64,000 bases of DNA from Stygiobacter sp. RIFOXYC2_FULL_38_25 (GTDB lineage Bacteria > Bacteroidota > Ignavibacteria > Ignavibacteriales > Melioribacteraceae): contig MHAZ01000001.1 in assembly GCA_001803165.1 (NCBI GenBank), positions 124,001-188,000 of the forward strand, read 5' to 3'. This document shows positions 23,495 through 36,400 of this stretch, piece after piece; position 1 is the stretch's first letter, and each line of letters opens with the position of its first letter. The notes under the pieces are model-generated. The model was given only the letters and a program-made list of their open reading frames with translations. It ran no database searches and was not told where the DNA came from. The position numbers and the translations under genes are program-made.

Positions 23495-24467
23495 AAGAAA
23501 CATTTCCGAAATTTCTCATCTGATTGATGAAGACTTAAAACGCTTTAACGAGCTATTTAAGCAATCCCTCAAATCTAAAGTCGCCTTAGTAGATTTAATT
23601 ACCCGCTATATTCTTAAGCAAAAGGGAAAGAAAGTTCGCCCTTTGCTTGTCTTGCTTTCAAGCAAAATAGCCGGCGGAGTTTCCGGGCGCAGCTACCGCG
23701 GTGCTATTCTTGTAGAGTTACTTCACACAGCAACTTTAGTTCACGATGATGTTGTTGATAATGCAGAAACAAGGCGAAGTTTTCCATCAATCAATGCCGT
23801 ATGGAAAAATAAAATTGCTGTACTGATGGGAGATTATCTTCTTTCAAGAGGATTAATGCAAGCCGTTGATGGCTCTGATTATGATTTTCTAAAAGTTATA
23901 ACAAATACTGTACGCCGTATGTCTGAAGGTGAATTGTTGCAGACAAGCAAAACCCGCAAACTTGATAATGACGAAGAAACATATTTCAGAATAATATCTG
24001 ATAAGACGGCTTCGCTGCTTTCTACTTGCTGCGAAGTCGGTGCAAGAGCCGCAACTGAAGATGATGAAAAGATTAAAGCCATGAGAGACTTTGGCGAGAA
24101 TTTGGGAATTGCTTTCCAAATACGTGATGATATCTTGGATTTTGTAGGAACAAGTTCGCTGCTTGGTAAACCCCTTGGTGGAGATATCAAAGAAAAGAAA
24201 TTAACGCTTCCTCTCATTTATGCGCTCAAAAATTCCCCGGCTGATGAGGTTAAACAAGTTATTAAAACTATGAAAGCCAGCGAGAAAAAAATTGATGTTA
24301 ATCTGGTAATCGAGTTTGTAAAGAGAAATGGCGGAATTGAGTATGCCGATAAAGTAGCAAAAGAATACTCAGAAAAAGCAAAACAAAACCTATCAATATT
24401 CGAGAACTCAGAATATAAATCAGCTTTAAGTGATTTAGCCGATTTTGTTGTTGAAAGAACCAAGTAA
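23487..24467 (+). CDS. ispB: Trans-polyprenyl diphosphate synthase
   Basis: A 326-residue all-trans polyprenyl synthase that condenses isopentenyl diphosphate units onto an allylic starter, probably making the menaquinone side chain. Both aspartate-rich motifs are intact: the first as LVHDDVVDNAETRR and the second as AFQIRDDILDF. Also visible are KGKKVRPLLVLLSS, INAVWKNKIAVLMGDYLLSRG, EGELLQTSK and GGDIKEKKLTLPLIYAL. The product chain length cannot be set from sequence. Its GTG start lies inside the end of tatC. About 180 nt of non-coding DNA with a small hairpin follows. Confidence 0.92.
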   Translation: MPKRNISEISHLIDEDLKRFNELFKQSLKSKVALVDLITRYILKQKGKKVRPLLVLLSSKIAGGVSGRSYRGAILVELLHTATLVHDDVVDNAETRRSFPSINAVWKNKIAVLMGDYLLSRGLMQAVDGSDYDFLKVITNTVRRMSEGELLQTSKTRKLDNDEETYFRIISDKTASLLSTCCEVGARAATEDDEKIKAMRDFGENLGIAFQIRDDILDFVGTSSLLGKPLGGDIKEKKLTLPLIYALKNSPADEVKQVIKTMKASEKKIDVNLVIEFVKRNGGIEYADKVAKEYSEKAKQNLSIFENSEYKSALSDLADFVVERTK

Positions 24468-24513
24468 CAGAAGTTAAGCACTTTGTGATTTTATAGTGCC
24501 TTGGTGACTTATC

Positions 24514-24531
24514 CCGAAGGGACTCCTTCGG
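24514..24531. other. Small perfect hairpin after the prenyl synthase gene
   Basis: CCGAAGG at 24514-24520 pairs with CCTTCGG at 24525-24531 around a GACT loop. It lies 47 nt after the prenyl synthase stop. There is no T-run directly after it, so it is a weak terminator candidate or a dispersed palindrome. Confidence 0.4.
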
Positions 24532-24646
24532 AGGTGGCAAAAAGAACACAGAAGAAATTGAGCCACCAAATTTCACTAAGGAAAAATTATAAATTATAAA
24601 TTATGTGTAACTTTTGTAAGTAATCATTTCGAAATAAGGAAACAAT

Positions 24647-25387
24647 ATGAGTAAGAAACTTTTATTGTTATTTCCACTTATCTTTTTTGGATGTCTCCAG
24701 TACGAAGAAAATATGAAATTGAACAGTGATGGTTCCGGCGAAGTAGTCTCAGCAATCGGAATCAACTCATCTATTTTTTCACTTGGCAACGACACAACTT
24801 CATATAAAGGGTTCAACGAAGAATCCATCATAAAACAATTTGAACATAAAAAGGGAATTAAAGTCCTTGGAACATCGAGAGAAACAAAGGATGGAATAGT
24901 TTGGATAAGAGTAAATCTCAGCTTTGATTCACTTGAGGATTTAGTGAAAGCGGCCGGAAATTCTTCGGAGTACTCTATGTTAGGTGAGATGACGTTAACA
25001 GAAAACGAGGATGGAAATTTTGTCTTCGAGAGGAAAATCGGCAGCAGCAATCCGGATAAGAATGTTGAAAATACTAATGATGAGATTGGTAAAGGAATGC
25101 TTGGGGCAATGTTCGGGCAATACAAATGGACTTATGAATTAACTCTTCCCGGTAAAATCGTTTCTACCAACCTAAAAGAAAGTGAGACTGATAGAGGGAC
25201 AAACCAAATCAAACTAAGCTACTCATTGGCAACTCTAGATAAAGTTCAACCAATCAAAATTGTATTTGAAAAAGGAAACCGGCTAAACGTTTGGATGTTT
25301 TTTCTATTACTTGTAGTAGCTTCAACTTTAGGATATTTTATTTTCTATCTGCTTAAAAGTAAAAAAGATACTAAGGCTGCCGCTTAG
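24647..25387 (+). CDS. LppM-like lipoprotein with C-terminal membrane anchor
   Basis: A 246-residue protein with a signal peptide ending in a lipobox (LIFFGCLQY; Cys near residue 16), a beta-rich domain with MKLNSDGSGEVVSAI near its start and the later W-x-YELTLPGKIVSTN segment, and one C-terminal membrane helix (about residues 217-236) followed by a short basic tail. This arrangement matches the LppM/DUF3153 type, in which a lipoprotein-like domain is also tethered by a C-terminal helix. Role unknown in this group. It stands alone between two non-coding gaps; TAACTTTTG at 24606-24614 loosely resembles a -7 element. Confidence 0.72.
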   Translation: MSKKLLLLFPLIFFGCLQYEENMKLNSDGSGEVVSAIGINSSIFSLGNDTTSYKGFNEESIIKQFEHKKGIKVLGTSRETKDGIVWIRVNLSFDSLEDLVKAAGNSSEYSMLGEMTLTENEDGNFVFERKIGSSNPDKNVENTNDEIGKGMLGAMFGQYKWTYELTLPGKIVSTNLKESETDRGTNQIKLSYSLATLDKVQPIKIVFEKGNRLNVWMFFLLLVVASTLGYFIFYLLKSKKDTKAAA

Positions 25388-25494
25388 TATAAAAATGGAT
25401 TTTTAATAATTCCGAATACAAATTAACTTTGAAAGAGATAGCAGATTTTTCTTACCATAAATTTCCCCTTGCTTTTAAATTGATCTTCTCTTAC

Positions 25495-25976
25495 GTTGAA
25501 AATGGAAATTGAAACAATAAAAAAGGGTGGGGCTCTGCAAAATTGGGGTCTCAATTAAAAACACACTTATAGTTCTCTACAAAAGCAAAAAACAACAAAA
25601 TAAAAATAGATTACAATAAGGCATTGCGTTTTTGTTATGTGTAAAAGAAGGCTGAGTTATATCTAACCAAGTTTATTCTTTTACACAGCAAATTGTAAAT
25701 ATCTCAAAAGAAAATTGAGTTGCTGTAAAGCCAAATTAGTGCTTCGCAGAGCAAAGTTTGGATTCGGTAAAACGAAAGTGAATTATTGCAAAAGGGAAGT
25801 GTGATCTTACAAAACGCATTTATTGTGAAGTAAAACACACTTTAAGTATCGTAAAATGAAAGCGAGGTCTTGTAAAACGTAATTAATGTGATATAAAGCA
25901 CGTTTTGGGCGTTGCAAAATGAAAGTGAGCTAATGAAAAACAAAAGTAAAGCACCGCAAAACCGGGTTTTGAGGGA
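25495..25976. repeat. Degenerate tandem array with a 21-nt period
   Basis: This covers most of the 624-nt gap between the LppM-like gene and the next ORF. From 25641 to 25976 there are 16 consecutive 21-nt steps, most opening with an A-tract core of the form G-Y-AAAA (clearest at 25641, 25725, 25767, 25788, 25830, 25851, 25872, 25914 and 25956). From 25495 to 25640 weaker units follow the same period with one 1-nt slip. A 63-nt superunit is visible at 25788, 25851 and 25914; the first two share about 42 of 63 positions. On the minus strand, one frame reads a 7-residue repeat ending Phe-Tyr or Phe-Cys in nine of 16 units, but has two stops and no evident start. It is therefore either a DNA-level repeat or an eroded heptad-coding gene. 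Confidence 0.75.
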
Positions 25977-26011
25977 ATTATTGTGTTTTTCCTTTGAAAT
26001 AGGAGTTTTGG

Positions 26012-26119
26012 GTGATAACTGCCATGGTCGAGGACTACCATGACGAAAAGATGGGTATTTACTGGCGCGGAATGGTCCGCGACAGCATTAAAATATATGA
26101 GGAGGAAAAACAACTATGA
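26012..26119 (+). CDS. Small ORF coupled to the downstream helical protein
   Basis: A 35-codon ORF beginning at GTG 26012, eight bases after AGGAG, and ending in a TGA at 26117 that overlaps the next gene's ATG at 26116 (ATGA). An in-frame ATG at 26024 is a possible alternative start. The product is charged and contains MGIYWRGMVRDSIKIYEEE, with no signal peptide or known motif. The ribosome-binding site and the ATGA coupling support real translation, at least as a leader that couples the following gene. I do not recognise the sequence. It begins 36 nt after the repeat array ends. Confidence 0.5.
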   Translation: MITAMVEDYHDEKMGIYWRGMVRDSIKIYEEEKQL

Positions 26120-26808
26120 AGCGCCATGAAGCCAACAAACTAAACATGCTGAAAGCTGTAAACGCAGTATTAGAAAGCAGCATTACAATAGTTTCAGAAT
26201 ATCCGGCACTTAGTGAAGCCGCCGCAGAGCTTAAAACTAAAATTGCAGAGATAAACGCAATTGATATGAAATTTAGTACAAGCATAGACGGCAAGACCAG
26301 CACAAAGAATATGCTTGAAGATGAATTGATAGAAGATTTAATGCCGGTTAAGGCGGCGTTGTATGCTTACTCAGTAAGAAATAAGAACGAAGAACTGAAA
26401 ACGTTAACCAAAGAAAGTGAAAGTACGCTTAAAAGAATGCGTGACCCGGAATTTTTACAGAAAGCAGAGTTGATAAAAACAGAAGCACAAAAACATTTGA
26501 CTGACCTGGCGGCTTATAAAATAACAGAAATAGTTTTGACAGAACTGCAAGAAAAGATAACAGCATTTGGAGAGGCATTAGATGGAAAAGATACCGGCTT
26601 TGCAAACCGGAGCGCATTAAGAATAGCATTAACAGAAAAGTTTGATGAAGCTGATAACATTTTGACCGAACAGCTTGACGCGCTTATTGAGTTGGTTAGA
26701 AAAAGCAACACATTGTTTTATGACCAGTATTACGTAGCTAGAGTAATTAAAGATTTAGGTACACCACAAAAAACAGAAGGAGTGAAAACTCCGGAACCGG
26801 TAAAGTAA
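26116..26808 (+). CDS. Uncharacterised helical protein
   Basis: A 230-residue, almost entirely alpha-helical, charged cytoplasmic protein with no signal peptide, membrane segment or Cys cluster. Helical stretches include LNMLKAVNAVLESSITIVSEYP, LSEAAAELKTKIAEINAI, and the C-terminal LTEQLDALIELVRKSN. The overall pattern suggests an antiparallel helical bundle, perhaps with two related halves (residues about 1-115 and 120-215). The C-terminus is a short Pro/Lys/Thr tail. GGAGG lies before the ATG, and the start overlaps the stop of the 35-residue ORF. I do not recognise the family. It sits among repeats and secreted proteins, which suggests an accessory gene. Confidence 0.65.
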   Translation: MKRHEANKLNMLKAVNAVLESSITIVSEYPALSEAAAELKTKIAEINAIDMKFSTSIDGKTSTKNMLEDELIEDLMPVKAALYAYSVRNKNEELKTLTKESESTLKRMRDPEFLQKAELIKTEAQKHLTDLAAYKITEIVLTELQEKITAFGEALDGKDTGFANRSALRIALTEKFDEADNILTEQLDALIELVRKSNTLFYDQYYVARVIKDLGTPQKTEGVKTPEPVK

Positions 26809-26814
26809 ATGTAG

Positions 26815-26871
26815 AGACGGCTCGATGAACCGTCTGAAAAGAAGAAGCAGACGTTCCAACGGAACGTCTGC
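26815..26871. repeat. Pair of palindromic hairpins
   Basis: AGACGG at 26815-26820 pairs with CCGTCT at 26830-26835. Then GCAGACGTTCC at 26847-26857 pairs perfectly with GGAACGTCTGC at 26861-26871 over a 3-base loop. Both share the GACG/CGTC core. They lie in the 141-nt gap after the helical-protein gene. Their form resembles dispersed palindromic (REP-like) elements; the second could also end transcription, although no T-run follows. Confidence 0.6.
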
Positions 26872-26949
26872 TACAGTAAACAAAAAAAAGTGGTATTAAA
26901 ACCGCCACTGCAAAGAACAAAACGATAATTAATCTAATGGAAGTTTCTG

Positions 26950-28527
26950 ATGAAAAAGACATTGGTTGTGTTATTATTTTTCGTGTGTAGCATTAAGGCA
27001 CAAGAAGCATTTATATTATTGACAAGCATACATGGAGAAAAGCAAGGGGATGCATATTCTAGTGTAGCACAACTTGGCGATGTAAATGGAGACGGCTACA
27101 ATGATTTTATCGTGGGTAGCCGTGGCAAAGGATATGCAAAACTATACTTCGGTGGGTCTCCATTTGACACTCTTGATTGTGTAAGATTTCAATCGCACGA
27201 ACAATTTACGGCATATAGCGGTTCTTTTGCCGGAGACGGAGATTTAAATGGGGATGGTTACAAGGATTTTGTATTAGGTGCGGCATATGACATTTTTCAA
27301 TTTGGGAAAATATTTATCCACTATGGGAAATCGAAGATTGATACACTGGCAGATAAAACAATAACTGGCAAAGGTCCATACTACCATTTTGGAGTACAGA
27401 TGACTATGAGCGGAGATTTAAATGGAGATGGTTACGATGATTTAGTAGTCAGTGCACCGAGCGACGACATTGATGCGCATGGAAGGGTATATATCTATTT
27501 CGGTGGGAAAGAGATGGATACAATTTGTGATGTATTATTAGAAGGAAAAAGTCCATTCGATACCTTCGGCGGCTCAATTGCGATAGTGGGAGACACAAAC
27601 GGAGATGGTTATGACGATTTACTTGTTGGCGCTTCACAATCTTTAGCAAAGAATAAGACAGGCGAAGCATATTTATTTTATGGCGGTAAGAGTATTGGAT
27701 TTAGTAACAGTAGAGAATTTGTTGGAAAAGATAGTCTTAATGGGTCTTATGGTAATAGAGTAGCCGGACTTGGAGATATAAATGGAGATGGCTTCAGTGA
27801 TTTTGGAATAACATCTAGTACAACTGTTGATATTTTTAGCGGGGCTCAATTAACAAATTTTTATACGATTAGTTCAACCAAAAAGTACTGGTACCCATTA
27901 TATCTTTCCAATGGTGTAGATATTAATAATGATGGTTTTTCGGACTTTGCTATGAGTTATGCTTATCAGGAAAATCAATATACCGGTGATGTAGCGATAT
28001 ACCTAGGAAAGAAGTCTATTAACTCTGATCCGTCTATCATTATAAATGGTATAACAAAAAACGGTTATTTGGGAACGGGGTTAGCAATAAGTAATGATAT
28101 TAATGGTGATAGTTTCGCCGAAGTTTTTGTTGGTGAAAATGGTGAGCTTACACAGAATGGAACAATTGGATATGGAAAAACATCTTTGTATACATATGGA
28201 ACTGTTGATGCGCTTGACAACTCTCAATATTCCGTAGATTTTCCCGAAGATTATAAACTCTTCGATAACTATCCCAATCCGTTTAATCCAGAAACTACAA
28301 TTAACTATCAGATTTCGTCATCATGTAATGTTAACATTACAATATTTGATTTACTAGGCTGCAAAATAGCAACATTAATTGATGAAGTTAAAGCGCCGGG
28401 TAATTACAAGGTGAAATTTAACGTAGATAATTTGGAGAAAAGCATAGTAGTGCCAAGTGGTATTTATTTCTATACGTTAAAAGCGGGAAACTATTTTCAA
28501 GTAAAAAAAATGTTATTGACAAAATAA
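26950..28527 (+). CDS. T9SS-exported FG-GAP (integrin-like) beta-propeller protein
   Basis: A 525-residue secreted protein. The signal peptide ends near SIKAQE. Residues of about 35-420 carry repeated FG-GAP units with the calcium-binding DxNGDGxxD signature: DVNGDGYNDF, DLNGDGYKDF, DLNGDGYDDL, DTNGDGYDDL, DINGDGFSDF, DINNDGFSDF and DINGDSFAEV, so about seven blades as in an integrin-like propeller. The C-terminus has the type IX secretion type A sorting domain: FDNYPNPFNPETTINY, then VNITIFDLLG, GIYFYTLKAG and KKMLLTK. It would be exported across the outer membrane and either released or attached to the surface. The ligand is unknown. A second T9SS cargo gene follows. Confidence 0.9.
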   Translation: MKKTLVVLLFFVCSIKAQEAFILLTSIHGEKQGDAYSSVAQLGDVNGDGYNDFIVGSRGKGYAKLYFGGSPFDTLDCVRFQSHEQFTAYSGSFAGDGDLNGDGYKDFVLGAAYDIFQFGKIFIHYGKSKIDTLADKTITGKGPYYHFGVQMTMSGDLNGDGYDDLVVSAPSDDIDAHGRVYIYFGGKEMDTICDVLLEGKSPFDTFGGSIAIVGDTNGDGYDDLLVGASQSLAKNKTGEAYLFYGGKSIGFSNSREFVGKDSLNGSYGNRVAGLGDINGDGFSDFGITSSTTVDIFSGAQLTNFYTISSTKKYWYPLYLSNGVDINNDGFSDFAMSYAYQENQYTGDVAIYLGKKSINSDPSIIINGITKNGYLGTGLAISNDINGDSFAEVFVGENGELTQNGTIGYGKTSLYTYGTVDALDNSQYSVDFPEDYKLFDNYPNPFNPETTINYQISSSCNVNITIFDLLGCKIATLIDEVKAPGNYKVKFNVDNLEKSIVVPSGIYFYTLKAGNYFQVKKMLLTK

Positions 28528-28640
28528 TTGTGTTTGTCAAAAATCACTTTTAGGCAAGAGTTAGTGTTGAAAACAATAACGTTATAGCATCAAGCTTTAA
28601 CGACTAAACCAAATAAATAAAAACAAAAAGGAAAGGGGTC

Positions 28641-31600
28641 ATGAAGCATGCAAATCATTTCATTTGTAAAAACACAGTGCTAATGCTAGCCGCACTATTA
28701 CTATTAGCACTTCAGTTTTCTTATGCACAAAAAACTCATTCTGTTTCATTTTCAAAAACTTCTATAGAATTTTCAACAGTAATGGAAAAAGATGGGAGTG
28801 AGTATCAGAAAGTAAAAGCAAAAGATTTATACTTTACTAATAAGCCAGGGAAGCCGAATTTGCCCATAAAGCAACTCCGGTTATTAATTCCGCAGAATCA
28901 AGATGTATCGAATATTGTAGTTAATGTGAAAAGCAATGAAAAAATTAAACTGTCAAAAAGAATACTACCATCGCAGCCGGATATTCCTACTTCAAGTAAT
29001 TATAAAGGTGATGAATTTGTTAAACCGGATTCATTAGTATATAATTCAGAATTACCCTGGCCAAATGAAATAGTAAAAGTAAAACATGACGGATATTTTG
29101 ATGGAACTAATCACATAGTAACATTGGAGGTATATCCGTTGCGGTATTACCCCAAACATGATTACGTGGAGTTTTACGACGAAATTGAATTCACAATAAA
29201 TTTTCAAAACACTAAAAAGCAATTACTCCCCGCACCTAAGAGAGATAAAAAATATAAAGACCTTTACGAAAATGTTTTAACTCATTCTATTGATAATCCG
29301 GAAGATATTCCTTTGTATTCAATTTCAAGAAATTATAGTTCAGTCTTAAGAAAAACAACAACTCTTCCTTTTTATGAGTATGTTGTTATAACTTCCAATG
29401 CTAGGGCACAGGATTTTAATAATTTTATTGATTGGAAAAGAAGAAAAGGATTATTTATTGGTCTGGTAACCGTAGAACAAATAAGCTCAAATTATACGGG
29501 AGATCAAATTTCAGGAATAAATGATGAAGCCGGAAAAATTAGACAATACTTAAGTGATGCTTATATTAATGGAACAGTTTATGCGCTTCTGGGGGGCGAT
29601 TCGACAGCAGTTCCTTTAAGGTATGGCTGTGGTGCTAACAATCTGTGGACAGATATGCAACCATTAGACTATAAAATCCCAACGGATATCTACTTTGCTG
29701 ATTTTGATGGAGATTGGAATGTTGACAATGATCAGTACTACGGTGAAATAAGTAATGATTCACCAGATTATGAACCGGAAATTTTTGTTGGAAGATTGCT
29801 TTGTTCAAGCTCTCAGGATATTCAGAACTGGACAAATAAATTAATTCTGTATGAAAAAAACCCGGGTAAAGGTAGTTTTGATTATCTAACACGGTCGTTA
29901 ATGAATGAAGCTGATCAAATGCAAGATGGTGGAGAAGCGAATTCTGTAAGAAATAATTTGCCAGCGGTTTTTAATAATGGAAATGATCCGATAATTAGTG
30001 AAACGCCTTCGGCTTACAGCGCTACGCCAACTTACCCAACAGGTGCAAATATTATTACACAATTCAATAATAATATTTACGGTTTATGGAGTTGGTTTAA
30101 CCATGGCACGCCAGTTGGGTTTACCGCAAAAAGTGCTTACTATGATAATACTCCACGTAATTTATTAACTACCCTTGATAGTTATAGTTTTCAAACCCCT
30201 GAAACTGGAAATGGTTTAGATAATCTTAATAATGCAAATTTTCCAGCAGTTGTTTATTCAATTTGTTGTGATGTGACACCGTTCGACGATTATAGCCCCA
30301 ACAACTGGTATGACGGGTACAGAAATATGGGTGAAGGTTTTACAGTAATGGGGCAGTACGGTGGTCCGAATTTATTGGGTAATACGAGATACGGTTGGGT
30401 AACTAATTCATCACAAATGTACTCACTGTTTGCTGGGTTGCTTAATTCTACTTCCACTCATTTGGGTGTTGCAGAAGCAATTTCAAAAAGCAATTATGGA
30501 AACCACTATTTAGCATATTCTCACAATCTAATTGGCTGCCCGGAAACACAGCTTTGGACAGCAACACCATCTTATTTTTCAAATGTTTCTATTACAGATA
30601 ATGGTACAAGCATTTCGGTAAATACTGGTGTTGCACATTCAACTGTTTCTATATTCAATGCGAATTCAAGTTCAGAATACCTTTATAGAGTAACAGATAC
30701 TCAAAATTGTACGTTCAATACATCAACGCGCCCACTCTATATTACGATATTAGCTCAGAATTACATTCCATTTTTTGCAGTTACAGGCGGATCATTTACA
30801 CAAAACATAACTGTTCCTATAGATGAAACATTAAATATTTATCCCGGCACAACGTTAAGTTTTGCAAGTGGTACCGGAATTTTAGTAAGCGGTAAATTAA
30901 ATGCCGTTGGTAATTCCTCCAATAGTATAACATTTACAAAAAGTGGATCTAATAATTGGAGCGGAATACAGTTCAATAGCGGTAGCAGTGGCAATTTAGA
31001 TTACTGCACAATTCAATACGCTGGGAATGGAATATACTGTTACAACTCTTCCCCAACAATTAAACACAGTACTTTAGATAATAATTCCGGTTCAGGTTTG
31101 TACCTTAACAATCATTCAAGTCCAGTTCTTGTAGGTAACAATTTTCGTTTTAACGGTAGTTATGGTATCCGATGTGAATCCTATAGCTCTCCTAACCTTA
31201 CTGATAATGGATACCCGGGTTCAAATGTAATAAGAAATAATAGTTCCGGAGGTATATCATCGTATTATTATTCAAATCCCAATTTGCTGGGCTATATGAC
31301 ATATGGTAATAGTGTTTTCGACAATACCGGCTATGAAGTTTCAGCAACTTCAAACTGTACTATAAATGCTCAAATAGTTTATTGGGGAAGTGGTGCAACG
31401 TATTATGAATCTGGATCGACGATTGATCGCTCAAATGCTCTTACAACAAATCCTAATCCAAACCGCTCAATTATAATTAGTGGCGGTGATACCGAACAAG
31501 CGCTCTCAGCAAAGGCAGTATCTCTAAAAATAGCAAGTGATGAAATAAATAAAGCTCTCGAGAAACTGAAAGACAAAAAATATGATGAAGCAATCCCAAT

Positions 31601-32351
31601 GTTTCTGGAAATATTTAGGAATAACGCAGATGCTTTATTAGGCAAATATGCACTTTGCAAAATTGAAGAATGTTATACTCAAGCAGGAAAGAAGGATTAT
31701 GTTGCATACTCCAAATCGGTAATAAAACCAATTCTTAAAGAAGGGACAGAAACATATGTTGTTGCTCTTGAATTAGAAGCCCACCAAATGGTTAATGCCG
31801 ATTTGTATATGAATGCAATCAACAACCTTCAAACCATTTTGAAAAAATACAACCTAAACAGCGATATTGATAAAAACACATTATTTACATTAGGTGCTGT
31901 TTATAGTTTGTATTTGGGTGACAAGGCTAATTCGGATAAATATTTTGGAGAGTTGAAGAAAAGATATTCAAATGATGAGTTGATAAATCAGATCGAAATA
32001 ATTAAAAGTTTTGGTACCGTAACAAGTAGCTATAATCAAAACGGCGAAATTATTTTACCCTATGATTTGACTAATGATGTAGGAACGACTTCCGAAGAAT
32101 TATTCTCTAACTATCCAAATCCATTTAATCCATCAACTAGAATTTCTTTTACGCTAAAAGAAAGAGGTAAGGTTAGCTTAAAAGTGTATGATATCTTAGG
32201 TAAAGAAGTAGCAAATCTTGCCGATGGGTTTTTTGAATCTGGAAAACATGTTACTGCTTTTGATGGTAGTAATTTAGCAAGTGGAGTTTATTTCTACAGA
32301 TTAGTAACACCAAATGCTACTATTTCAAAGAAAATGATGCTGATGAAGTAG
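28641..32351 (+). CDS. Secreted C25 (gingipain-like) peptidase with beta-helix, TPR-like and T9SS domains
   Basis: A 1236-residue secreted cysteine peptidase. After the signal peptide (to about residue 29) comes a propeptide-like beta region, then the C25 peptidase domain from about residue 240 (YVVITSNARAQDFNNFIDWK, TVYALLGGDSTAVP, DGDWNVDNDQYYGE). The catalytic His is in WFNHGT (His488) and the Cys in SICCDV (Cys542 or Cys543). A right-handed beta-helix follows at about 710-930 (Asn/Ser-rich GNGIYCYNSSPTIKHS-type rungs), then a TPR-like helical region at about 950-1120, and a C-terminal T9SS type A sorting domain (FSNYPNPFNPSTRISF, GVYFYRL, KKMMLMK). The beta-helix and TPR additions are unusual beside the catalytic domain. 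A strong terminator follows. Confidence 0.88.
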   Translation: MKHANHFICKNTVLMLAALLLLALQFSYAQKTHSVSFSKTSIEFSTVMEKDGSEYQKVKAKDLYFTNKPGKPNLPIKQLRLLIPQNQDVSNIVVNVKSNEKIKLSKRILPSQPDIPTSSNYKGDEFVKPDSLVYNSELPWPNEIVKVKHDGYFDGTNHIVTLEVYPLRYYPKHDYVEFYDEIEFTINFQNTKKQLLPAPKRDKKYKDLYENVLTHSIDNPEDIPLYSISRNYSSVLRKTTTLPFYEYVVITSNARAQDFNNFIDWKRRKGLFIGLVTVEQISSNYTGDQISGINDEAGKIRQYLSDAYINGTVYALLGGDSTAVPLRYGCGANNLWTDMQPLDYKIPTDIYFADFDGDWNVDNDQYYGEISNDSPDYEPEIFVGRLLCSSSQDIQNWTNKLILYEKNPGKGSFDYLTRSLMNEADQMQDGGEANSVRNNLPAVFNNGNDPIISETPSAYSATPTYPTGANIITQFNNNIYGLWSWFNHGTPVGFTAKSAYYDNTPRNLLTTLDSYSFQTPETGNGLDNLNNANFPAVVYSICCDVTPFDDYSPNNWYDGYRNMGEGFTVMGQYGGPNLLGNTRYGWVTNSSQMYSLFAGLLNSTSTHLGVAEAISKSNYGNHYLAYSHNLIGCPETQLWTATPSYFSNVSITDNGTSISVNTGVAHSTVSIFNANSSSEYLYRVTDTQNCTFNTSTRPLYITILAQNYIPFFAVTGGSFTQNITVPIDETLNIYPGTTLSFASGTGILVSGKLNAVGNSSNSITFTKSGSNNWSGIQFNSGSSGNLDYCTIQYAGNGIYCYNSSPTIKHSTLDNNSGSGLYLNNHSSPVLVGNNFRFNGSYGIRCESYSSPNLTDNGYPGSNVIRNNSSGGISSYYYSNPNLLGYMTYGNSVFDNTGYEVSATSNCTINAQIVYWGSGATYYESGSTIDRSNALTTNPNPNRSIIISGGDTEQALSAKAVSLKIASDEINKALEKLKDKKYDEAIPMFLEIFRNNADALLGKYALCKIEECYTQAGKKDYVAYSKSVIKPILKEGTETYVVALELEAHQMVNADLYMNAINNLQTILKKYNLNSDIDKNTLFTLGAVYSLYLGDKANSDKYFGELKKRYSNDELINQIEIIKSFGTVTSSYNQNGEIILPYDLTNDVGTTSEELFSNYPNPFNPSTRISFTLKERGKVSLKVYDILGKEVANLADGFFESGKHVTAFDGSNLASGVYFYRLVTPNATISKKMMLMK

Positions 32352-32390
32352 CCGTCTGTTTTCAGCAATCAGCTATCAAAAAAATAACCA

Positions 32391-32427
32391 AAAGCCCCGG
32401 CACAAAACACCGGGGCTTTACTTTTTT
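32391..32427 (+). terminator. Intrinsic terminator after the C25 peptidase gene
   Basis: AAAGCCCCGG at 32391-32400 pairs perfectly with CCGGGGCTTT at 32410-32419 around a 9-base loop, followed by a T-run at 32422-32427. It lies 40 nt after the stop. The remaining 220 nt up to the ActA gene are AT-rich and hold the likely operon promoter; TTTTGG near 32532 and TATCTTG near 32559 are a weak match to the Bacteroidetes consensus. Confidence 0.85.
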
Positions 32428-32648
32428 AATACACTACATCTACAAAAAAATATTTTTATAAGAATATTAAAAAGAGATAACGGTGTTCTAACTACGTGAA
32501 AAAATTTTTGGATTTTAAAATTCATTTCTTATTTTGGCATTGAAATTCTGAAAAATATATATCTTGTCTTTTACAAAGAAAACTGACCGTAAACATCAAG
32601 TCAGTCCCAAAAAATTAATTCAAAAAAATACTCTTTTACAGGTCCTAA

Positions 32649-33402: not shown

Positions 33403-36400
33403 ATGAGTTCTTCCGAATACAATAAAAAGAATTTTTGGAAAAGTCTTAAAGAATATTACGATGATCCGGCAGTGTTTGAAGCAAAGGCTCACGAGTTTCA
33501 AGAAGGTGTAACAGATGATTTTAATCCTTCTCAACTCTCCGGTCTTTCCCGTAGGAAATTTTTAGCTGCGTTAACCGCTTCTGCAGCGTTTGCAGCTACT
33601 GCTTGTTCAGATTACCGCGATAAGGGAGAAATCATTCCTTATAACCAACGCCCGGAAGAAGTATTACCAGGCAAAGCTAACTTGTATGCTTCTACCTGTA
33701 CGTCTTGCGCGCAATCTTGCGGCGTTCTTGTTAAGACAAGAGAGGGCAGACCAATCAAAATTGACGGCAATCCTGATCACCCGATTAATCAAGGAAAGAT
33801 TTGTTCTAAAGGACAGGCAAGCATTCTAAACTTGTATGATCCGGAACGTTTAACTGAACCAACGGCTTCGAAAAATACTGTAAGCTGGAGTTCTGTTGAT
33901 TCAGATATAATTTCTTCCTTGAATAGCGCTCAATCAAACGGAAAGCAAATAGCAATTCTTGCCGGCAGCATTGTTTCACCTACTACGAAAAAAGTTTTAG
34001 ATGATTTTAAGGCGAAATACACGAACACAAAAGTTTATTCTTACAATTTATTTGGTGATGATTCCCGCCGGGCTGCCTGGTCTGAATCTTATGGCTCTGC
34101 AGAATATCCATCAATCAAGTGGGAAGAAGCAAATGTAATCCTCGCCATTGATGCAGACTTTTTGGGTAACGAAGGAAGCTTCATTGAAAATACAAGAAGA
34201 TTTGCTAACCGCAGAGAGGTTGTGGAAAATTTAGACATCAACAGATTGTATGTTGCCGAAGGAAGAATGAGCGCAACCGGAATGATGTCCGACTACAGAA
34301 TTAGAATTTCGCCGAGTAATCAATTAGAATTTGTTCTCGCATTGACTAGCGAGATAGTAAAAACCGGTTCTACAATTTCTTTGGATGCAACTGCTAAATC
34401 TCTTTTGGAACAAAGTTCGTTAACAAAATTTGCCGGCGGACAAAGCAAGAAGCTAACTCATCTTGTACAAGATTTAATTGCGAACAAAGGTAAGTCAATT
34501 GTTTACGCGGGAGATACTTTACCCAAAGAAGTTCATATTGCAGTTAATCTACTGAATGAAGTACTTGGAAATACAGCGCTATACGATTATAGCAAAGTTT
34601 CGAAATCACTTTTACCAAGTTCTACATCGGATGAAATACAAGCATTGGTATCAGCTATGAAATCCGGCAGCATTGAAACTGTAATCCATTTTGATTGCAA
34701 TCCGGTTTTCGATTTCCCAAAATCTTTTGAATATACAAAAGCTATTAAAAACGTAAAGACAGTTGTAACACTAACAGAAGCTGAGAACGAAACATCTTCG
34801 GCAAGCAATTATAGTTTACCTATCAATCATGCTTTGGAGAGCTGGGGCGATGCTTATACCAAGTCTGGTGTTTATAGCTTGCAACAGCCGGTAATATCTC
34901 CAATCTTTAATTCACGCCAGAAAGAAGCAATCCTTTTAACGTGGATTACAGGAAACACTTCTGCTTATAACGATAAAATTTATCACAAATATCTTTTAGA
35001 TAATTTTAACGCAACAATTTATACTAAGAAAAATTCTTTAGCAGGTCAGAAAACGTTCTGGTACTCAGCTTTGCACGATGGCGTTGTTACATTTGATGAG
35101 ACATCTGCATCGAAGAGTTTCGCTCAATCAGCTTTGAGTGGAATTAAACTGCCAAGCCAAGTAACCGGTAATACTCTTCATCTTACAGAAAGCTATTTCT
35201 TAGGTAACGGAAAATTTGCCAACAACGGCTGGCTGCAAGAAACACCTCATCCGGTCTCGAAAATATCTTGGGATAATTACGCTTCCATCTCACCGGCATT
35301 TGCCAAGCAGCTTGGTTTAGAAATGAATGACCTCGTTGAGATTAGCGTGAATGGTAAACAACTAACAATTCCGGTTCTTGTTCAACCTGGTGTTCATGAT
35401 ACTACAATCAACATTGAACTTGGTTACGGTAGAAAAGTTATTGGCGATGTAGGTAAAGATGTAGGTTTTGATGCTAATGTTTTTGTCTCAGCGCTTGGAA
35501 TACATGTATATCAAAATGTAAGTGTTAAGAAAGTTGGTGGAACACATAAACTTGTTTCAACACAAGAGCATCATTCGCTAGATGATACATTCGTAAAAGA
35601 TTTTCACCGCATCAGAAAGATTATTCAAGAAGGTACAGTTGAGAAGTACAAGAAGGAACCAAACTTCTTACACGAAGAAGTGAAAGAAGAACTAAGCATT
35701 ACACGCGAGCATGATTATACCGGCACTAAATGGGCGATGGCTATTGATCTAAACAAATGCACAAGCTGCGGAACATGCGTAACTGCTTGTAATGTCGAGA
35801 ATAACGTTCCCGTGGTTGGTAAAGATCAAGTTGGACGCGGTAGGGAAATGCAATGGATGAGAATTGATCGCTACTATAGCGGTACACCGGAAGATCCGAT
35901 AGCAAGCAATCAGCCGATGCTTTGCCAGCATTGCGATAACGCTCCTTGCGAAAATGTTTGTCCGGTTAACGCAACAAACCACAGCCAGGATGGATTGAAC
36001 CAGATGGCTTACAACAGATGCGTTGGAACCCGTTATTGTTCTAATAACTGTCCTTACAAAGTTCGTCGTTACAATTTCTACAACTTCCGCGATCATTTTG
36101 CAGATGCTTATTATGAAAATAATCTTACTGCTATGGTTCACAATCCGGAAGTTACTGTACGCTCACGCGGCGTTATGGAAAAATGTACATTCTGTGTTCA
36201 AAGAATTATGGAAGCCCGTTCAGATGCAATTAAAGATGGAAGAGTTTTGAAAGGTACAGATGTAGTTACAGCTTGCCAGCAAGCTTGTCCGGCAAACGCA
36301 ATTGTATTTGGAGATGCGAATGATAAAGAATCGCAGATAGCAAAGCTTAGAAATCACAATCTCGCTTATCACGTTTTAGAAGAATTAAACGTAAAGCCGA

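Follow-up and report, generated by a model that had tools for sequence, protein, structure and literature searches.

Introduction

Plasmid iterons and partition repeats are tandem sites of about 17–22 bp, which are found close to the gene for the protein that binds them. Repeats and a protein gene are also combined in the type III toxin-antitoxin systems (ToxIN, CptIN, TenpIN), which have about three to five copies of pseudoknotted 34–36-nt repeats, a terminator, and a ToxN-type endoribonuclease (PMC5086642). In addition, bacterial tandem repeats of constant size (20–21 or 52 nt; 20–23 nt in many groups) and variable sequence were described by Subirana and Messeguer and called enigmatic (PMC8161180). 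In the sections of that article considered here, it was remarked that the length equals two helical turns, and protein polymerisation on the DNA or small RNAs were suggested. These sections name neither a partner gene nor a fixed position, and the fuller earlier survey of the authors may report such an association.

Here, an array with a 21-nt period is characterized, which is located in a stretch of 64,000 nucleotides of Stygiobacter sp. RIFOXYC2_FULL_38_25 (the window), together with its relatives in other Bacteroidota.

Results

The window contains a single degenerate 21-nt array

A first-pass annotation of the window had claimed 16 exact steps of 21 nt, and it was verified that no indel occurs across the units of the array (Table 1). 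The autocorrelation of the region 25495–25976 was compared with dinucleotide shuffles. The two lags proposed in that annotation, 21 and 63, both gave peaks (z 6.4 and z 8.0), and further peaks were found at lags 42 (z 6.2), 84 (z 7.0), 105 (z 4.5) and 126 (z 4.9). The strongest peak was thus at lag 63, which fits the claimed 63-nt superunit. The self-identity of the array at lag 21 was 47%, compared with an average of 28% over the window (sd 3%), and no second array of this kind occurs in the 64 kb. Weaker units had been suggested to extend back to about 25495; units at 25537 and 25579 are indeed present but weaker, and they are one base out of register. Tandem Repeats Finder did not report the array at a score of 40, because its copies are too diverged (the similarity between units is only about 65%). 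When at least four detectable copies are taken as the mark of a tandem repeat, this program thus overlooked the window array, while autocorrelation resolved 16 units; clean arrays occur at other loci. A CRISPR-like division into repeats and spacers was absent, and the units are arranged head-to-tail and are degenerate. Elsewhere in the window a 23-nt tandem repeat with two copies was observed (34289–34332).

Table 1. Features of the array locus in the window.
Feature	Position	Strand	Basis
Promoter-like pair, Bacteroidota-type: TTGC (25469–25472), 18 nt, TTACGTTG (25491–25498)	25469–25498	+	Direct reading
Conserved head (leader start) with AAAAAAGGGTGGGGCTC...GGGGTCTC	25483–25640	+	9.5% substitutions compared with the C21 paralogue
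Degenerate array, 16 units of 21 nt	25641–25976	+	Autocorrelation and paralogue comparison
Conserved tail after the array (GGAATTATTGTGTTTTTCCTTTG)	25977–26010	+	12% substitutions, no indel compared with C21
p1 partner gene, 230 aa	26116–26808	+	ORF
Post-gene segment with genome-repeated hairpin; end of the region shared with the paralogue	26809–26887	+	Aligned bases 79% identical to C21
FG-GAP repeat protein with Por_Secre_tail (T9SS cargo), next gene after p1	26950–28527	+	Pfam; position is the only tie to the array

The array precedes a gene for a small helical protein

The array is located upstream of a gene on the same strand, p1. Both this position of the array and the related copies in the genome had been overlooked previously. 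The promoter-like pair was called with a consensus that we take to be that of Bacteroidota promoters, and an alignment revealed the pair (TTGn-N18-TTAnKTTG) in three further copies, i.e., C21, C6 and L094 of a congener. At C6, the conserved head recurs ahead of the gene p2 and its array, both unrelated to those of the window, and at C14 it precedes a T9SS gene. The C16 paralogue carries a recognisable match to the conserved tail. Between the array and the gene lies a palindrome-bearing insert (26011–26098), which is not present in the C21 paralogue and has similar copies at C4 and C12. The hairpin after p1, GTAGAGACGGCTCGATGAACCGTCT, is likewise repeated in similar form at several sites of the genome. 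No Rfam family was detected in 24500–27500, and no rho-independent terminator was found between the array and the gene on the plus strand of the window (25300–26950).

In three congeners, no more than a few hundred bases separate the gene ending near 24467 from the counterpart of window position 32467 or 32613. As the flanking genes are nearly adjacent there, about 8 kb (24468–32466), which include a lipoprotein gene, the array with p1, and two T9SS-type genes, are missing from these genomes.

The AlphaFold2 model of p1 consists entirely of helices (mean pLDDT 91, pTM 0.63). A comparison with Pfam gave nothing above the cut-off, and a fold search against the PDB and the viral BFVD gave no match at E <= 0.001. 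Single-protein searches for mobility by phage or plasmid yielded no relative, and the plasmid collection contained none of p1. Homology of p1 to the FN3 family (hhalign probability 17%, E 0.0014) or to DUF6261 (probability 2%) could not be established.

The array is under purifying selection and is inherited with its gene

The window genome contains two p1 paralogues, C21 (92% identical) and C16 (70% identical). C21 is a complete unit of head, array and gene, and C16 has its own array, in which direct reading revealed a mixture of 20-nt and 21-nt units. The window copy and C21, a single paralogue pair, were used for a comparison of divergence. The array differs at 41 of 336 positions (12.2%) and has no indel, while divergence is 31.5% at the fourfold-degenerate sites of the gene and 43% in the spacer (for the head and the tail see Table 1). 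This indicates that the array is under purifying selection. Substitutions were scarcest at unit phases 2–6 and 11–13.

The units were compared in gene orientation among 40 p1 loci. Their similarity was 0.65 where the proteins are more than 50% identical (10 pairs), compared with 0.37 in reversed controls, and it was near background at protein identities below about 45%. Unit similarity thus tracks protein identity, showing that the arrays descend with their gene and that the unit is still recognisable at a protein divergence at which neutral DNA should be saturated. The units of distant loci are unrelated in sequence, and a motif common to all 63 arrays analysed was weak (3.2 bits over 21 columns, compared with 2.5 in controls).

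These results bear on the possibility that replication or recombination simply generates functionless 21-nt tandem copies near these genes. In its favour, array units are homogenised locally and decay towards the edges, a pattern that satellite turnover would produce. However, such a mutational by-product should not diverge less than fourfold sites with zero indels, its unit should not be kept across deep protein divergence, and the arrays should not be confined to certain gene families. This explanation is thus largely contradicted and very improbable.

It had also been proposed that the array is an eroded repeat-protein gene, read as heptads on the minus strand. The count behind this proposal was correct: minus-strand frame 0 of the window array has just two stops, and the other frames have 4, 6, 8, 9 and 9. 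However, no frame is open across the loci, since elsewhere stops occur in every frame or a different frame is open, and distant loci have unrelated units. Third positions of the minus-strand frame were not enriched for changes between the paralogues either (12 of 41, about the chance third). Coding on either strand was therefore rejected, and an eroded gene can hardly be upheld any longer. In contrast, the alternative proposal of an element acting at the DNA or RNA level gained support from purifying selection, from the recurrence upstream of homologous genes, and from the parallel between unit and protein.

Arrays with a 21-nt period are widespread upstream of p1 and p2 homologues

A search of relatives had been recommended, with the remark that the lack of any related array would speak against the element. 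Loci were gathered via protein similarity alone, using homologues of p1 and of the helical protein with FN3 domain, p2, and arrays were clearly widespread. Homologues of p1 were found in 38 of 294 genomes sampled in the class and in 17 of 395 in the phylum, with a patchy distribution and up to nine copies per genome; p2 relatives occur in Ignavibacteria and in other Bacteroidota. Upstream sequence was long enough at 91 non-redundant loci; among these, the period was 21 nt in 67, 22 nt in three (L063, L110, L111), and 14, 20 and 27 nt in one each, and 18 had no detectable array. The arrays comprise 5–35 units of 21 nt, and some are GC-rich. Lag 21 was found in 948 of 996 periodic windows and lag 22 in 24. 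Most array loci had z values of 8 to 67, compared with at most 5.3 in 900-nt background stretches of the window, the array itself excepted. In a scan of about 520 kb, values above 10 were confined to six places, all of them preceding p1 or p2 genes; the C16 copy among them appeared as lag 41. To the scanned DNA, one G169 contig contributed 197 kb and contig C6 of G000 contributed 200 kb; the remainder was the window and 62 kb chosen around known loci, and these 62 kb are thus not an unbiased sample.

Several loci deviate from the common arrangement. At C14 a decayed array persists without p1 (period 21 at z 4.4). This locus (L003) and L178 of G195 both have the conserved head before a T9SS-type gene and lack p1. 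At L130 and L131, weak p1 matches lie within longer ORFs (330 and 422 aa) behind strong 21-nt arrays (z 24 and 45), and thus the p1 family may be wider. A weak 21-nt signal was found at one of five DUF6261 loci (L146, z 8.5), and this family is at most a candidate for a third one with arrays.

A second protein family was predicted to have arrays

The p2 gene at C6 encodes a protein of 204 aa with a helical hairpin and an FN3 domain. It is unrelated to p1 and has the same head as the window copy and a different 21-nt array. A further p2 relative is present in G295, a genome of the genus of the window. In Bacteroidia, proteins of about 200 aa that combine a helical N-terminus with an FN3 domain form a widespread family. 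This family was expected to carry arrays as well, and an approximate sequence of it served as query. As predicted, all four full-length homologues (28–59% identical) had an upstream 21-nt array (z 8.7–24.3), while 26 partial matches to the FN3 domain had no comparable array (strongest lag-21 z 5.9). Three more p2 relatives with arrays (z 22–28) were found in G109.

The p2 arrays exhibit dyad symmetry with a mean z of 1.7, which was not found as a general feature beyond them. In-phase reverse-complement words occurred in 8 of 64 arrays and were convincing mainly in L111 and L018. In the 22-nt array of L111, upstream of the p2 homologue, an 8-base word alternates in phase with its reverse complement (16 pairs, 1.3 expected), and upstream of the p1 homologue L018 two unit types with in-phase reverse-complement words alternate (period 42).

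Evidence for a function at the RNA or the DNA level

Taken together, the arrangement recurs at most homologues, its period is fixed, the array is selected, and the unit is conserved together with the protein. Our tentative interpretation is that array and gene form one inherited two-part module, consisting of a 21-nt repeat leader and a matched small helical protein. The 18 of 91 loci without a detectable array and the decayed array without p1 at C14 count against this interpretation. So do the mild acidity of the proteins (median pI 6.0) and their lack of a recognisable nucleic-acid-binding fold.

Several features would suit a transcribed leader. In 51 of 63 arrays purines are enriched on the sense strand, to a greater degree than in the flanks; in this lineage the promoter-like pair (TTGn-18-TTAnKTTG) and the conserved head precede otherwise unrelated arrays; and the RNA of the window array is predicted to fold better than dinucleotide shuffles (z -3.1). 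Purine bias, common head and folding in the window may indirectly favour transcription of the leader. Compared with unit-permuted controls, the RNAs of the 63 arrays had no consistent structure (mean z -0.34), and a scan of all loci for a promoter signal before or after the arrays was negative.

The fixed 21-nt period is equally expected from two turns of B-DNA (21 bp). Accordingly, the protein or a partner might polymerise on double-stranded DNA with one site per two turns, and regulate transcription or organise the DNA like an iteron or a partition site. Such polymerisation was suggested for satellites of this kind in the sections considered of PMC8161180. It would agree with a period that is kept while the sequence varies, with the absence of indels in 336 bp, with the dyad symmetry of the p2 arrays, and with the in-phase reverse-complement words of some arrays (L111, L018). 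However, the three 22-nt arrays and the mixed 20/21-nt array of C16 would drift out of phase, a purine bias of one strand would not be expected, and no DNA-binding fold was recognised. Bending by A-tracts, as proposed in the first-pass annotation, proved not to be a general function: several arrays are GC-rich, and the predicted curvature of the 63 arrays was not higher than that of unit-shuffled versions (mean z -0.3; two above z 2), so that curvature is not selected. A DNA-level array is somewhat less probable, and we lean towards the RNA level.

Genes for defence proteins adjoin some loci

At other loci the gene following p1 appears, from reading the sequences, to encode a Cas3-, Cas8- or Cas9-like protein, a type I restriction subunit, a NACHT-type protein or T9SS cargo. 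The genes that look like Cas3, Cas8 and Cas9 follow p1 on the same strand at L057, L021 and L071, respectively, and two of these three loci are in one genome. With PADLOC, Cas and restriction proteins were among the neighbour matches listed and were fewer in a control of two genomes. An association with defence islands is a lead only, from few loci and this small control.

Proximity to CRISPR-Cas or restriction genes would also fit repeats that act as an RNA antitoxin and neutralise a toxin encoded downstream, possibly in phage defence. The layout of repeats followed by a gene is the same as in type III systems, and the ToxIN repeats also diverge in sequence while their length is nearly kept within groups (PMC5086642). 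However, no ToxN, CptN or TenpN endoribonuclease was recognised downstream, p1 being all-helical and without a toxin-family match. The arrays have 5–35 units of 21 nt instead of about three to five of 34–36 nt, and the window has no gene-strand terminator between array and gene. A type III-like antitoxin is thus improbable.

Discussion

Our tentative reading is a co-inherited pair of repeat and protein, probably with a leader that is transcribed and that its protein binds. The leader would be transcribed together with the p1 gene, and the protein, or a complex containing it, would bind the repeats with one site per 21-nt unit. The resulting repeating ribonucleoprotein would control its own operon, often with defence genes or genes for secreted proteins; an alternative of equal standing would be a free complex built from the same RNA and protein. 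That the unit length is fixed while the letters vary from place to place points to an undescribed repeat-protein partnership. With still more caution, it can be proposed that such two-component modules, a 21-nt-period leader and a matched helical protein, occur phylum-wide in Bacteroidota with at least two families (p1 and helical+FN3, possibly also DUF6261), and that they form a repeating RNA-protein or DNA-protein assembly outside the described systems, which would offer a handle on the enigmatic satellites.

The arrays share with type III toxin-antitoxin systems that tandem repeats directly precede a protein gene, that the repeats diverge in sequence but keep their length within a group, and that those of close relatives are alike (PMC5086642). 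They differ in that neither pseudoknotted 34–36-nt repeats, nor a terminator (in the window), nor a ToxN-type endoribonuclease was seen.

Unlike iterons and partition sites, the arrays are chromosomal, degenerate and present in several copies per genome, and no Rep or Par domain is associated with them.

They fit the described but unexplained class of constant-size satellites: the unit length is constant (948 of 996 at lag 21), the sequence is not conserved between families, and they are non-coding. As far as the sections considered of PMC8161180 go, the satellites also have a 20–21-nt unit, differ in sequence between families, are mostly non-coding, occur in many bacterial groups, and were proposed to be selected for size. 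In contrast to them, the arrays described here precede genes of particular small-protein families, and their degeneracy often hides them from tandem-repeat finders. As arrays can be conserved and nevertheless escape such programs, they are probably undercounted. Judged by the same sections, the pairing of arrays with helical protein families appears to be the new part, provisionally, since the fuller earlier satellite survey could contain this link. Satellites of constant length and free sequence occur in many bacteria and were hitherto unexplained, and their tie to gene families in Bacteroidota makes the puzzle directly testable.
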